Below are positions 42,236 through 55,330 of a DNA stretch of 64,000 nucleotides, piece after piece; position 1 is the first letter of the stretch; each line of letters opens with the position of its first letter. The notes below the pieces were generated by a model, which did no database searches, had not been told where the DNA came from, and worked only from the letters and a program-made list of their open reading frames with translations. The position numbers and the translations under genes are program-made. This stretch comes from Tabrizicola sp. TH137 (GTDB taxonomy: Bacteria > Pseudomonadota > Alphaproteobacteria > Rhodobacterales > Rhodobacteraceae). The stretch is from the NCBI RefSeq assembly GCF_002855575.1, contig NZ_PKRQ01000003.1, forward strand, positions 186,001 to 250,000, given 5' to 3'.

Positions 42236-42280
42236 GGTGCCCGATGGAAATGCAGCGCGTTGGAGGGTGCGCGTGGAAGG

Positions 42281-42392
42281 GTGAGTGCGGGCGGGTGAGT
42301 GCGAGCGGGTGAGTGCGAGCGGGTGAGTGCGAGCGGGTGAGTGCGAGCGGGTGAGTGCGAGCGGGTGAGTGCGAGCGGGTGAGTGCGAGCGG
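42281..42392. repeat. 14-bp tandem repeat, eight units
   Basis: GTGAGTGCGAGCGG repeated seven times exactly (42295-42392) after one variant unit (42281-42294, GTGAGTGCGGGCGG). No spacers, so not CRISPR. The perfect copies suggest recent expansion by slippage; copy number probably varies between strains. Confidence 0.95.
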
Positions 42393-42427
42393 GTGATCAA
42401 GTGGAGCGCGCCCCCCTACCGGGGGAC

Positions 42428-50814: not shown

Positions 50815-51351
50815 ATGATGCAGTTGGAAGGGTTTGTCCGGTGGGCCGAGGGGCTGAACCGGATTGTCGGAAATGTGGTGTCCTGGATGGCGCTGGGGAC
50901 GGTCCTCGTCTGCTTTGCGACCGTCTATACGCGCTATGCCCTGAACACGAATTTCACCTGGTTGCAGGACCTTTATGTCTGGCAGCACGCGGCGGTGATC
51001 GTGCTGGGCGCGGGCTATACGATGGTGATCGGCGGCTTCGTGCGGGTGGACATCTTCTATTCCAAATGGACCCCGCGCGGGCGGGCGCTGTCGGACCTGA
51101 TCCAGACGGTGATCTTCCTGCTGCCTTTTGTGGCGGTCTGCGCCTGGGCCTTCTGGATCATGGTGCAGAATTCCTGGGCCGCCGATGAGGCCTCGCCCAA
51201 TCCCGGCGGGTTGCAGAATTACTGGATCCTGAAGGGAACGCTGTTGGCCTTCGTCGCGCTGGTGCTGTTGCAGGCGGCGGCGATGGTGGCGCGGTCGATC
51301 CTTGTTCTGCGCGGGCGCGAGGAATTCGCCCCGGCCGCCAGCAGCCACTGA
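50815..51351 (+). CDS. TRAP transporter small permease (DctQ type)
   Basis: 178 residues with four predicted helices. LNRIVGNVVSWMALGTVLVC and TWLQDLYVWQHAAVIVLGAG fit the DctQ family. GGGGGAAGC precedes the ATG; a second in-frame ATG follows directly. It starts 9 bases before dctM ends its own leader, in one operon with it. Confidence 0.88.
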   Translation: MMQLEGFVRWAEGLNRIVGNVVSWMALGTVLVCFATVYTRYALNTNFTWLQDLYVWQHAAVIVLGAGYTMVIGGFVRVDIFYSKWTPRGRALSDLIQTVIFLLPFVAVCAWAFWIMVQNSWAADEASPNPGGLQNYWILKGTLLAFVALVLLQAAAMVARSILVLRGREEFAPAASSH

Positions 51352-51360
51352 GCGGGGGGC

Positions 51361-53268
51361 ATGATGGATTCCATGGTTCTGGGCCAGATTCTGGCCGGGC
51401 TGTTCTTCCTTGCCATCCTTGGCACGCTGATGTTCGGCTATCTGGTGGCCTTCGCCCTGGGCGGGCTTTCGATCCTTTTCGCGGTGATCGGCTGGATGGT
51501 CGGAGCGTTCGACATGAACCTTCTGTCGTCGCTGGCCACCCGGTTCTTCGGGGTGATCACGAACCCGGTTCTGATCGCCGTGCCGCTGTTCGTCTTCATG
51601 GGCGTGGTGCTGGAGAAATCGCGCATTGCCGAAGTGCTGCTGACCACGATGGGGCAGTTGTTCGGGACGCTGCGCGGGGGGCTTGGCTTTTCGGTGGTGA
51701 TCGTGGGCACGCTGCTTGCCGCGTCAACCGGGGTGGTGGGGGCGACGGTCGTGACCATGGGCCTGCTGTCGCTGCCTGCGATGATGCGGGCGGGCTATGA
51801 TCCGCGCATCGCGACGGGGGTGATCTGCGCGGCGGGCACGCTGGGCCAGATCATCCCGCCTTCGACCGTGCTGATCTTCGTGGCCGACATCCTGCAAGGC
51901 GCGAATGCGGCGGCGCAGATGGAGCTGGGGAATTTCGCGCCCGACACGATCTCGGTCGGTGATCTGTTCGCCGGGGCCTTCTTTCCCGGGATGGCGTTGG
52001 CCTTCCTTTACGGCCTCTACATCGCCTTCCGCGCCTTCATGAACCCGGCCGCCTGCCCTGCCCTGCCGATGACGGCGGAGGAAAAGCGCGGTCTGGGCCG
52101 CCGGGCCGTGGTGGCGCTGGTGCCGCCGATGGCGCTGATCATCGCGGTGCTGGGGTCGATCATCGCGGGCGTGGCGACACCGACGGAGAGCGCGTCGGTC
52201 GGATCGCTGGGCGCGATCTTCCTGATGATCGTGAAGATGCTGGCCGACCATCACCTGGATGACGGGTCGGGCAATGCCGAGGTTCTGGAAAAGCGGTTGA
52301 TGACCTTCTGGCTGGGGTTCCTGGCCGTGCTGGTGGCGGTGGGCTTCTTTGGCGGGGCCTTCGGCCTGCTGACGCTGCTGATCGTGGCGGTGGCGGTGGG
52401 GTCTGTTGCCGTGCTGATGACGGGGGCGCTGCGCGCGCGCTTTGTCGAGGTGATCCGCGACACGAACAAATCGACCATGTCGATCACCTCGATGATCTTT
52501 ATCATCCTGCTGGGGGCGACGGCCTTCGCGCTGGTCTTCACGCGGATGGGCGGGGGCGAGCTGGTGCAGGGGATGCTGGAGGACATGCCGGGCGGGCAGC
52601 TCGGCGCGCTGATCGTGGTGATGGCGATCATGTTCGTGCTGGGCTTCTTCCTTGATACCTTCGAGATCGTTTTCATCGTGGTGCCGATCACCGCGCCGAT
52701 CCTTCTGATGATGGGGCTGGACCCGATCCTTCTGGGGGTGCTGATCGGGATCAACTTGCAGACCTCTTTCCTGACGCCGCCTTTCGGGTTTTCGCTGTTT
52801 TACCTGCGGGGGGTGGCGCCGAAGTCGATTTCGACGGGGACGATTTATCGCGGGGTGATCCCCTTCGTGATCATCCAGCTTGCGATGCTGGTCGTGGTTT
52901 ACATGTTCCCCAAGACGGTGACCTGGCTGCCGGATTACCTGTTCCGGTCGCCCCCGGCTGTGGTGGCCCCGGCGGAGCCTGCGGCCGAGCAAAGCGGGGC
53001 CGAGAGCGATGCGGGCGGCGGGGCCTTCGATCTGGATGGCGGCACGCCGGAGGGGGAAGGCGGCGGTGCCTTCGACCTTGACGGTGGCGCACCGGAGGGT
53101 GAGGGCGGCGGCGGCGGTGCCTTTGACCTCGACGGTGGTGCGCCGGAGAGCGAGGGCGGCGGTGGCGGGGCCTTTGACCTGGACGGTGGCGCGCCGGAGA
53201 CGGAGGGGGGCGGCGGTGGCGCCTTTGACCTGGACGGTGGTGCGCCGGAGACAGAGGGGGGCGGCTGA
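51361..53268 (+). CDS. TRAP transporter large permease (DctM type) with repeat tail
   Basis: 635 residues. Residues 1-~530 are the membrane protein: many hydrophobic helices, with GTLLAASTGVVGATVVTMGL, ICAAGTLGQIIPPSTVLIFV and NLQTSFLTPPFGFSLFYLRG typical of DctM. After LPDYLFRSPP the last 81 residues (from 555) are five units of 15-17 residues, each AFDLDGG(T/A)PE followed by an acidic/Gly linker. DctM proteins normally end near the last helix, so the tail is unusual. It is highly acidic, perhaps Ca2+-binding or a docking segment (inference). Confidence 0.9.
   Translation: MMDSMVLGQILAGLFFLAILGTLMFGYLVAFALGGLSILFAVIGWMVGAFDMNLLSSLATRFFGVITNPVLIAVPLFVFMGVVLEKSRIAEVLLTTMGQLFGTLRGGLGFSVVIVGTLLAASTGVVGATVVTMGLLSLPAMMRAGYDPRIATGVICAAGTLGQIIPPSTVLIFVADILQGANAAAQMELGNFAPDTISVGDLFAGAFFPGMALAFLYGLYIAFRAFMNPAACPALPMTAEEKRGLGRRAVVALVPPMALIIAVLGSIIAGVATPTESASVGSLGAIFLMIVKMLADHHLDDGSGNAEVLEKRLMTFWLGFLAVLVAVGFFGGAFGLLTLLIVAVAVGSVAVLMTGALRARFVEVIRDTNKSTMSITSMIFIILLGATAFALVFTRMGGGELVQGMLEDMPGGQLGALIVVMAIMFVLGFFLDTFEIVFIVVPITAPILLMMGLDPILLGVLIGINLQTSFLTPPFGFSLFYLRGVAPKSISTGTIYRGVIPFVIIQLAMLVVVYMFPKTVTWLPDYLFRSPPAVVAPAEPAAEQSGAESDAGGGAFDLDGGTPEGEGGGAFDLDGGAPEGEGGGGGAFDLDGGAPESEGGGGGAFDLDGGAPETEGGGGGAFDLDGGAPETEGGG
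53023..53265 (+). repeat. In-frame tandem repeat encoding the FDLDGG tail of DctM
   Basis: Five units of 45-51 bases, each encoding AFDLDGGxPE plus an E/G linker. Units differ at synonymous positions, so the repeat is kept in frame and not just copied recently. Confidence 0.92.
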
Positions 53269-53442: not shown

Positions 53443-53700
53443 ATGAGCAATTTGACCATTCGGATGGACCCACAGGAAAAGCTCGCATTGGCGGCATGGG
53501 CCGAGATGAAGGGCGAAAGCGTCACCGAGTATATCAAGAGGCTCATCGCAAGCGACATGGCAGCGGGCAGCCCGCAAGCGCGCGCCGCGGCCTGGTATCG
53601 GGAAAATGCCTCTGCCCTTTCGGACGAGGCGCAGGTGATTGAGAGGGATGGGGTTCCCGGCTCTCATCTGGCCATGAACTATCCGGGACGGAATGAATAA
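53443..53700 (+). CDS. Ribbon-helix-helix antitoxin (CcdA position)
   Basis: 85 residues from ATG 53443 (GGGGGAG upstream). MSNLTIRMDPQEKLALAAWA then EMKGESVTEYIKRLIASDM is a ribbon-helix-helix DNA-binding domain (beta strand with alternating polar residues, two helices). The C-terminal part (ARAAAWYRENASALSDEAQV) would bind the toxin. It overlaps the toxin gene by 8 bases. Confidence 0.82.
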   Translation: MSNLTIRMDPQEKLALAAWAEMKGESVTEYIKRLIASDMAAGSPQARAAAWYRENASALSDEAQVIERDGVPGSHLAMNYPGRNE

Positions 53701-53992
53701 GTTCGACGTCCTCGACATCGACCGTGCCTTGTATGTCGTTGTTCAGGCAGAGCATTTGCTTGAGATCAACACGATCATCGTCGCTCCGATCCGACCGGCA
53801 GGGCTTTTTCCGGCGTTGCGCCAGCTTACCGTGGACGTGGATATCAAGGGCGTCACATGGCGGGTGTTGAGCCATATGCCGCTGACTTTGGATGCGCGCC
53901 TGGTGCGACATCGCATCCCCGTCCATCGCCTGTCTGATGAGGAAGGGGCGAGGGTGATGGACGGTCTGAACGCGGTCTTGTGGGGTCTGTAG
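53693..53992 (+). CDS. CcdB-family toxin
   Basis: 99 residues. KFDVLDIDRALYVVVQAEHL, INTIIVAPIRPAG, LRQLTVDVDIKGVTWRVLSH and the C-terminal VMDGLNAVLWGL follow the CcdB order (N-terminal strand, VVVPL-like strand, central sheet, C-terminal helix). CcdB proteins poison DNA gyrase; the C-terminal three residues matter for that in F-plasmid CcdB, and here they are WGL, so gyrase targeting is not certain. It is coupled to the antitoxin gene. Confidence 0.78.
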   Translation: MNKFDVLDIDRALYVVVQAEHLLEINTIIVAPIRPAGLFPALRQLTVDVDIKGVTWRVLSHMPLTLDARLVRHRIPVHRLSDEEGARVMDGLNAVLWGL

Positions 53993-54220: not shown

Positions 54221-55330
54221 TCAGGTCGCGGCGGGGAAGGTGAATTCCAGCGTCCGTGCGTTCAGGAAGGCCTGCTCGTTGAAGCGGAGGGTGCGCATCG
54301 TCATGGCGCGCGAGGCGAGGTAGGACTGCCAGACCCGCTTGGTCAGGTCATCGCCGGTATCCATCGATTCCTGCACCAACTCGCCCGCCGCATTGCCGAG
54401 GCCCTGAAGCACCTCGTTCGGGAGGCGCATGAACTGCACGCCATGGTCATTCGCCAGCGTGGCCATCGCCTCGCCCGAGCGGATGTCATATTCTGCCTTC
54501 ATGTCGATATAGCCTTCGGCGCAGGCCGAGCGGATGACCTGTTGCAGGTCTTCCGGCAGTTCCTGGAACTTGGCCTTGTTGACCATGAGCTGCACCGCGC
54601 CGCCCGGTTCCTGGATGCCGGGGCCGTAGCAGAACTTGGCCACCTGATGGAAGCCGAGGGCGAGGTCGTTGAGCGGGCCGATGAATTCCGCCGCGTCGAT
54701 CGCGCCGGATTGCAGACCGGCGAAAATCTCGCCCGCCGGCATGACGACGGCGGACCCGCCGACCTTCTTGATGAGTTCCCCGCCAAGGCCGGGAATGCGC
54801 ATCTTCAGGCCGTTGAAGTCCTGCATCGAGGTGATTTCTTTCTTGAACCACCCGAAGGACTGGCAGGCCGTCTGGCCGGCCGGGAAGGAGACGATGCCGA
54901 ACTGATCGTTCAGTTCATCCCACAACTCCTGCCCGCCGCCGAAGCGGAACCAGGCGAGTTGTTCATCGGCGGTCATGCCGAACGGGACGGCGAAGAAGAT
55001 GGAGAAGGCCGGATGCTTGCCCGAATGGTAGAAGGAGGCGTCATGCCCCATTTCGGCGGTGCCATCCATGACGGCATCCATGCACTGGAGCGCGGGGACG
55101 AGTTCACCGGCTGCGAAGGGGGTGATCTTCAGCCGCCCGCCCGAAGCGCGGGTGATGCGTTCGGCCAGACGTTCAGCCCCTGCGCCGACGCCCGGCAGGT
55201 TCTTCGGCCATGAGTGCACCATGCGCCATTCAAAGACGGTCTGCGCGATGGCGGGGGCTGCGAGGGTCGTGGCGGCCGCGGCGGCGGCGACCCCGAGGGT
55301 GGAATTCCTGAGAAACTGGCGTCTCTCCAT
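54221..55330 (-). CDS. TRAP transporter solute receptor (TakP-like DctP)
   Basis: About 369 residues from ATG 55330 (GGGAGAG upstream). Twin-Arg-like signal MERRQFLRNSTLGVAAAAAA ending PAIAQ. GELVPALQCMDAVMDGTAEM, GWFKKEITSMQDFNGLKMRI (with the conserved Arg binding a carboxylate) and DAAEFIGPLNDLALGF resemble the 2-oxoacid receptor TakP of R. sphaeroides. It is convergent with dctQM and separated by the toxin-antitoxin pair, not in the usual PQM operon. It probably serves those permeases. Confidence 0.9.
   Translation of the reverse strand: MERRQFLRNSTLGVAAAAAATTLAAPAIAQTVFEWRMVHSWPKNLPGVGAGAERLAERITRASGGRLKITPFAAGELVPALQCMDAVMDGTAEMGHDASFYHSGKHPAFSIFFAVPFGMTADEQLAWFRFGGGQELWDELNDQFGIVSFPAGQTACQSFGWFKKEITSMQDFNGLKMRIPGLGGELIKKVGGSAVVMPAGEIFAGLQSGAIDAAEFIGPLNDLALGFHQVAKFCYGPGIQEPGGAVQLMVNKAKFQELPEDLQQVIRSACAEGYIDMKAEYDIRSGEAMATLANDHGVQFMRLPNEVLQGLGNAAGELVQESMDTGDDLTKRVWQSYLASRAMTMRTLRFNEQAFLNARTLEFTFPAAT

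Follow-up and report, generated by a model that had tools for sequence, protein, structure and literature searches.

The large permease subunit (DctM) of a TRAP transporter encoded in the window, by which we mean the whole stretch of DNA analysed (64,000 nucleotides), continues past its conserved core into a 106-residue tail that contains five AFDLDGG(T/A)PE units, and this tail is translated in the DctM frame with its peptide preserved about as strictly as the transporter itself. We conclude that the tail is probably a functional part of the transporter, since tails built on different short motifs are present in many related transporters, and that it probably stands at the far end of a broader, apparently undescribed set of periplasmic tails on TRAP M-subunits. 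Our best explanation, which we put forward tentatively, is that it serves as a disordered, multivalent docking leash in the periplasm with a TakP-type solute-binding protein (DctP) as its likeliest partner, where we infer both the binding and the partner. The features on which the argument rests are as follows, in window coordinates.

50815-51351, plus strand: dctQ, small membrane subunit, 178 aa (PF04290 DctQ, 62.3 bits, cutoff 28.3)
51361-53268, plus strand: dctM, TRAP large permease, 635 aa (PF06808 DctM, 233.6 bits, cutoff 23.8)
52237-52431, plus strand: extra hydrophobic insert between the DctM halves, residues 293-357 (65 aa), gapped in over half of the 39 relatives without a tail
52948-53022, plus strand: P/A/E-rich linker, residues 530-554, beyond the ends of solved M-subunits and of tailless relatives, pLDDT mostly below 50
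53023-53052, plus strand: unit 1, AFDLDGGTPE, residues 555-564
53068-53097, plus strand: unit 2, AFDLDGGAPE, residues 570-579
53119-53148, plus strand: unit 3, AFDLDGGAPE, residues 587-596
53170-53199, plus strand: unit 4, AFDLDGGAPE, residues 604-613
53221-53250, plus strand: unit 5, AFDLDGGAPE, residues 621-630
54221-55330, minus strand: dctP, TakP-type solute-binding protein, 369 aa (PF03480 DctP, 176.2 bits; its model matches TakP 2hzl_B)

The dctM open reading frame begins with ATG after a gap of 9 nt from the end of dctQ and runs as one intact frame with no internal stops, and no Pfam domain other than DctM was found in its protein at E ≤ 0.001. With DctQ and DctP genes near dctM the neighbourhood of a tripartite TRAP system is present, dctP being convergent with dctM. 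The 952 nt separating these convergent genes hold two toxin/antitoxin-like genes at 53443-53992, one for a ribbon-helix-helix-like antitoxin that stays below cutoff (DUF6290/ParD) and one for a CcdB-like toxin that falls just short of its own (28.3 bits against 28.6); because the corresponding gap in the related locus L163 is only about 170 nt, this pair was gained or lost between dctM and dctP.

The conserved transporter core ends near residue 529, and we set the extension at residues 530-635 (106 aa) because solved M-subunits stop at about residue 529 and 42 of 84 M-subunits end no more than 4 residues beyond it; in each of the five solved M-subunit sequences that we located, the last residue lies no more than 10 positions from the window core end, and they carry no tail. 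The preliminary description of this DNA was right that DctM is extended by a repeat tail, although its 81 residues cover the part from unit 1 to the stop and the whole extension is longer. The tail consists of a 25-residue P/A/E-rich linker followed by the five AFDLDGG(T/A)PE units on E/G-rich spacers, and its 106 residues include 24 D/E, 37 Gly and 5 Phe with no K/R, which gives a net charge of -24. Tandem Repeats Finder reports a period of 51 with 4.1 copies and 88% matches (score 288, rank 2 by score among 74 window rows), the repeat search finds four registers at spacings of 45, 51 and 51, and the self-similarity of the tail was reached by none of 500 residue shuffles. Two other repeats lie elsewhere in the window, a 14-bp unit, GGGTGAGTGCGAGC, at 42279-42396 (8.4 copies, 99% matches), whose length is no multiple of three, and a 115-bp unit at 346-640 (2.6 copies, 95% matches) with inner 12-mers resembling CACAGTTTGCGG.

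That the tail is a real part of the protein is seen from its nearest relative, from Rhodobacteraceae MAG Clear-D3 (L001, the same gene as L089; genome G008, in the window's genus), in which the core is 92.6% identical and the tail has the same frame and five units with minor spacer differences. By Nei-Gojobori counting, corresponding units of the two genes differ by 13 synonymous and 2 non-synonymous changes (pS 0.344, pN 0.018) and the whole tail (104 codons) by 33.8 and 11.2 (pS 0.408, pN 0.049), giving a pN/pS of 0.119 for the tail and 0.126 for the core (core pS 0.334, pN 0.042). Comparison of unit with unit within the window gives a pS of 0.46 and a pN of 0.018 (all pairs, which are not independent), so the array is old and its peptide has been kept. 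The earlier argument from synonymous differences between units, namely that selection keeps the peptide, is borne out by these ratios. A frameshift near residue 540 was looked for and there is none; a frameshift or sequencing artefact is rejected because L001 reads through without a change of frame and likewise has five units. Open frames are present on both strands, but an overlapping gene in another frame is disfavoured since most of the changes, when read in the DctM frame, are synonymous.

The AlphaFold2 model of DctM, made from an alignment of 36 sequences, has a good core and pLDDT values below 50 at residues 532-538, 540-555 and 559-635, with neither helices nor strands beyond residue 528, and on this model the tail is predicted to be intrinsically disordered. 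Residues 11-530 of the model superpose on SiaM of Photobacterium profundum (7qha_B, residues 1-427) with a Z of 36.0 over 425/427 residues (rmsd 3.0), and in this comparison the elevator M-subunit fold is present over its full length; the core fold is also common to HiSiaQM (7qe5/8thj). The earlier view that such a tail is no part of the DctM fold agrees with all of this, as the core ends near residue 529, the modelled tail is unstructured and the SiaM superposition stops at the core. The window DctM differs from the solved M-subunits in the 65-residue insert between its halves, which is flanked by positive residues, but the side of its C-terminus would be unchanged in the model because both halves superpose together on SiaM. 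The cryo-EM account of SiaM describes it as N-out/C-out with TM12 within the transport domain (PMC9971032). Since the window core superposes on an N-out/C-out protein, the tail should be periplasmic, as judged from the model and the published topology. Counted by loop, with the loops assigned by hand from the model, K/R number 11 on the cytoplasmic side, 3 on the periplasmic side and 0 in the tail, in keeping with this orientation.

Tails are found on half of the related M-subunits. The related loci are the best 80 of a longer scan, in which one of the search patterns was taken from the tail linker, and this sample, being drawn by similarity to a tailed protein, may favour tails. Among the 84 M-subunits compared (the window included; L049, which is partial, the duplicates L085, L087, L089, L097 and L101, and three copies of the window itself, L081, L093 and L096, are left out), 42 are tailed, with 23-106 residues, 42 are tailless, with 0-4 residues, and none lies in between. 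On a tree of 90 rows (13 near-copies removed, 19 rows added), made by a quick method with long-branch warnings and with the L031 row on a long branch in the wrong frame, tail presence changes 3 times, against a mean of 30.1 for shuffled labels. Within the tailed DctM groups (38 rows) there is no tail loss, the tailless rows in that part of the tree being one clade of 30 and the single row L137. The usual tail of the window subfamily consists of one short motif, such as SDAPGTEGAPPPPPSFDEGGGEDEFL (L007, L008, L011), and the motif of L002, which is sister to the window pair on the tree with a support of 89 (not starred), is QSEAQKKNGAPPPAFNSDQPESDGG. Because an [AS]F[DN] core is common to the single-motif tails at the same place, the comparison suggests, although the matching stretch is very short, that the array of five arose from a single motif. 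In other lineages the tail has a different motif, present two or three times, as in SPVADDFSDLF..DDFRDLLP, where the second copy of the SPVADDFSDLF-type motif reads DDFxDLL, in SVLDDIL..SPLDQLL..DPVLDRL and in two copies of FNEDGIPIEDDDPMGFTKR. When 43 tails were shuffled, with that of L031 in its correct frame, 17 were self-similar at ≤0.05 (many of them interrelated) and 26 were not; the short single-motif tails are not self-similar in this test. Net charge is -2 or lower in 39 of 41 DctM-type tails, and the tails of L061 and L080 contain K/R.

Constraint on the short tails was compared with that on the core in six DctM pairs, three of which share L090, and in 4 of the 6 the tail is the more constrained, with synonymous to non-synonymous tail changes of 11:1 (L090/L011), 14:1 (L090/L007), 9:0 (L007/L008) and 11:3 (L090/L012); it is the less constrained in L011/L006 and L003/L004. 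A close DctM (E ≤ 1e-100) is present in 5 of 19 genomes of the genus, of which the window genome (G000) and G008 have five units and the three others a single-motif tail. The search for FDLDGG repeats elsewhere, as the preliminary description had envisaged, yielded little: the tail query matched 3 of 394 family genomes, namely its own and two weak matches, one with three internal stops, in a sample that includes two genomes of the window's genus, while the array-bearing G008 came from the genus search. Among the plasmid matches listed (30 of 1136 records) none spans the tail, and the string FDLDGG was not found in papers. No such TRAP tail is reported in the literature that our search reached, most subscription papers and bioRxiv preprints being outside it.

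The window genome has a second TRAP M-subunit with a repeat tail, TakM-type L164 (G000:C11:947319-949154, minus strand, in locus G000:C11:943364-954100), which adjoins a binding protein matching TakP over its full length (741 bits to 2hzk). Its tail is Gly/Pro/Leu, with GGLGxPPALQP units, and is set apart in this from the acidic window tail with its Phe motifs; its neighbouring binding protein is much nearer TakP than the window DctP is. TakM-type relatives were found in 13 of the 19 genomes of the genus and in 25 of 198 from the family, counts that include the window genome, and the 36 tails of this type extend 28-161 residues past a common stem. Of these, 21 are self-repetitive, with words that vary between genera (LGAPQ, LGQPQ, TLGAP, GLPPLDFGG), and 29 have a net charge between -3 and +1, the lowest value being -12. 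All five TakM pairs show looser constraint on the tail than on the core, and their tails have 1-3 indels. Judging by these sequences, a repeat tail at the M-subunit C-terminus is a recurrent feature that is not always acidic and whose growth looks partly drift-like.

Based on these data we now put forward a hypothetical mechanism, for which the tail follows TM12, itself a part of the moving (elevator) domain. The five AFDLDGG acidic-aromatic motifs on their Gly-rich spacers would bind a periplasmic partner weakly and reversibly, the best candidate being the TakP-type DctP encoded nearby, and the leash would keep this binding protein near the docking face, raising capture and re-binding. DctP is put forward because P, Q and M occur together in 14 of the 14 window-subfamily loci compared and the other recurrent genes identified there encode a LysR regulator (7/14) and a TauE-like membrane protein (open frames in 5/14), neither of which is a soluble periplasmic protein; the flanks in this comparison are short, and some open-frame clusters are antisense or without identity. 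Acidic docking repeats, one of two guesses offered earlier, are the better half of that proposal, with DctP as a candidate partner. The LysR gene itself adjoins dctM in L003, L004, L006, L007, L008, L009 and L153, all single-motif relatives (Pfam-checked in L003 and L007), and was not found beside dctM in the window.

There is a precedent of a kind in the claw domain of the TAXI-TRAP transporter VcGluQM (DUF3394), which like the window tail is a C-terminal extension of the transport domain with a periplasmic part; it is proposed to help binding-protein docking, and that paper states that the extension was unreported for DctP-type systems (PMC11574862). The claw has 185 residues, which form a folded beta domain and three additional TM helices, whereas the window tail has no TM helix, is unstructured and carries short motifs; with neither the three extra helices nor a folded periplasmic domain, it is no claw of this kind. 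It is possible, though we consider it doubtful, that many TRAP transporters with TakP-like DctPs use a disordered periplasmic tail on the moving domain with motifs (one, or two to five, re-invented in differing words) to leash the binding-protein dimer. Within that wider proposal, the suggestion that multivalent recruitment is new to secondary transporters, with the window FDLDGG array as its clearest case, is equally speculative. If the tails bind DctP they would be a simple, deletable and countable recruitment device, with one to five motifs, by which a freely diffusing binding protein could find its secondary transporter; otherwise some different role would have to account for a periplasmic tail that is both widespread and conserved.

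The window DctP belongs to the TakP type. Its model matches TakP (2hzl_B) with a Z of 46.2 over residues 30-366 (to 365 in TakP), including the long C-terminal helix after the clamp (328-358 in the DctP model, 326-365 in TakP), and on this predicted model it is likened to TakP, a helix-swapped dimer. As in the TakP/TakQ/TakM system of Rhodobacter sphaeroides (2hzk/2hzl), the ligand and cation residues are present: Y101, Q157, R178, E215 and E241 correspond to the TakP ligands Y100, Q156, R177, E214 and E240, with the numbering offset of one taken from the ranges of the structural alignment, and are invariant in 34 of 34 aligned DctPs. TakP is described as binding sodium together with the keto acid (PMC1839085), and 7ug8 and 2zzv are calcium-bound according to their entry titles. 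Simple electrostatic docking of the tail to DctP is unsupported, as there is no charge complementarity between the tail (net -24) and DctP (net -11) and the two charges are not opposed across 31 loci (Spearman +0.35, p 0.05). Co-variation of the tail with R349 of DctP was dropped as support for docking. In a first count, which was made without L010, L030, L057, L081, L084, L086, L090 and L091 and admits only loci with a DctP nearby, R349 was present in 31/31 tailed and 5/34 tailless loci, and with wider sampling K/R is found there in 29/31 and 7/41, but with only 2 independent pairs (sign test median p 1) it is inseparable from ancestry; the N-A-R motif near R349 is shared by DctPs whose transporters are tailless. 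Of the 42 tailless loci, 33 have a close relative of DctP (E ≤ 1e-100) in the vicinity, so TakP-type systems can dispense with a tail.

Any account of the tail must be weighed against growth of a GC-rich repeat by slippage at a free periplasmic end, where the product is merely tolerated or acts as a bulky spacer. We regard this as rather unlikely; it would explain why the words of TakM-type tails, 21 of 36 of them self-repetitive, change with the genus, why these tails are under looser constraint than their cores in every pair and gather indels, and why half of the M-subunits manage with none, but it does not sit well with a window array that is old by its between-unit pS and yet has kept its peptide, with single-motif tails on which constraint exceeds that on the core in 4 of 6 pairs, or with the lack of tail loss in the tailed DctM groups, where one stop codon would suffice, albeit in a sample that may favour tails. 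Repeated hydrophobic anchors on Gly/Pro spacers are the usual make-up of multivalent sticky tails, and both DctM and TakM tails are built in this way. The motifs might accordingly tie the transporter to a partner other than DctP, be it the transporter itself (in clusters), peptidoglycan, the outer membrane or another periplasmic protein. Nothing ties the tail to DctP specifically, but the recurrent neighbours identified beyond P, Q and M offer, in short flanks, only LysR and the TauE-like protein, and we judge such a partner unlikely.

Calcium or cation handling, in which the acidic repeats would bind or buffer Ca2+ near the entrance and perhaps take up the TakP-type cation, is in our view very improbable. 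The 24 acidic residues would suit it, as would a partner family that binds a cation with its ligand through sites (Q157, E215 and E241 in DctP) that do not vary, but these same cation sites are present in the aligned DctPs of tailless loci. EF-hand and dockerin sites read D-x-D-x-D-G and the RTX nonapeptide GGxGxDxUx, while AFDLDGG(T/A)PE has D-x-D-G without either loop. The calcium-binding repeat offered earlier as the other guess is therefore unsupported, and we reject it as the main reading on the motif, on a Pfam result of DctM only and on relatives of the TakM type whose tails are mostly near neutral. The complete lack of K/R and the negative charge of nearly all DctM-type tails would also suit an aid to folding or topology, with an acidic tail that exports easily and fixes the C-out orientation or shields the C-terminus from proteases. 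We find this improbable: tailless relatives are equally many, the tails of L061 and L080 do carry K/R, and the conserved Phe/Leu motifs and the five copies would be left unexplained. Docking to a periplasmic partner, DctP for preference, is what we tentatively retain.

Two further observations concern the related M-subunits. The DctP-type M-subunits L149, L156, L157 and L158 are about 890 aa long with a C-terminal extension of about 330 aa, placed as the window tail is but longer, in which no short-repeat tail was noticed and, for L149 and L156, no Pfam domain scores above cutoff. L058 bears the record title of a Klebsiella pneumoniae MAG but is placed on the tree among gamma-proteobacterial sequences from the environment, and is probably mislabelled.
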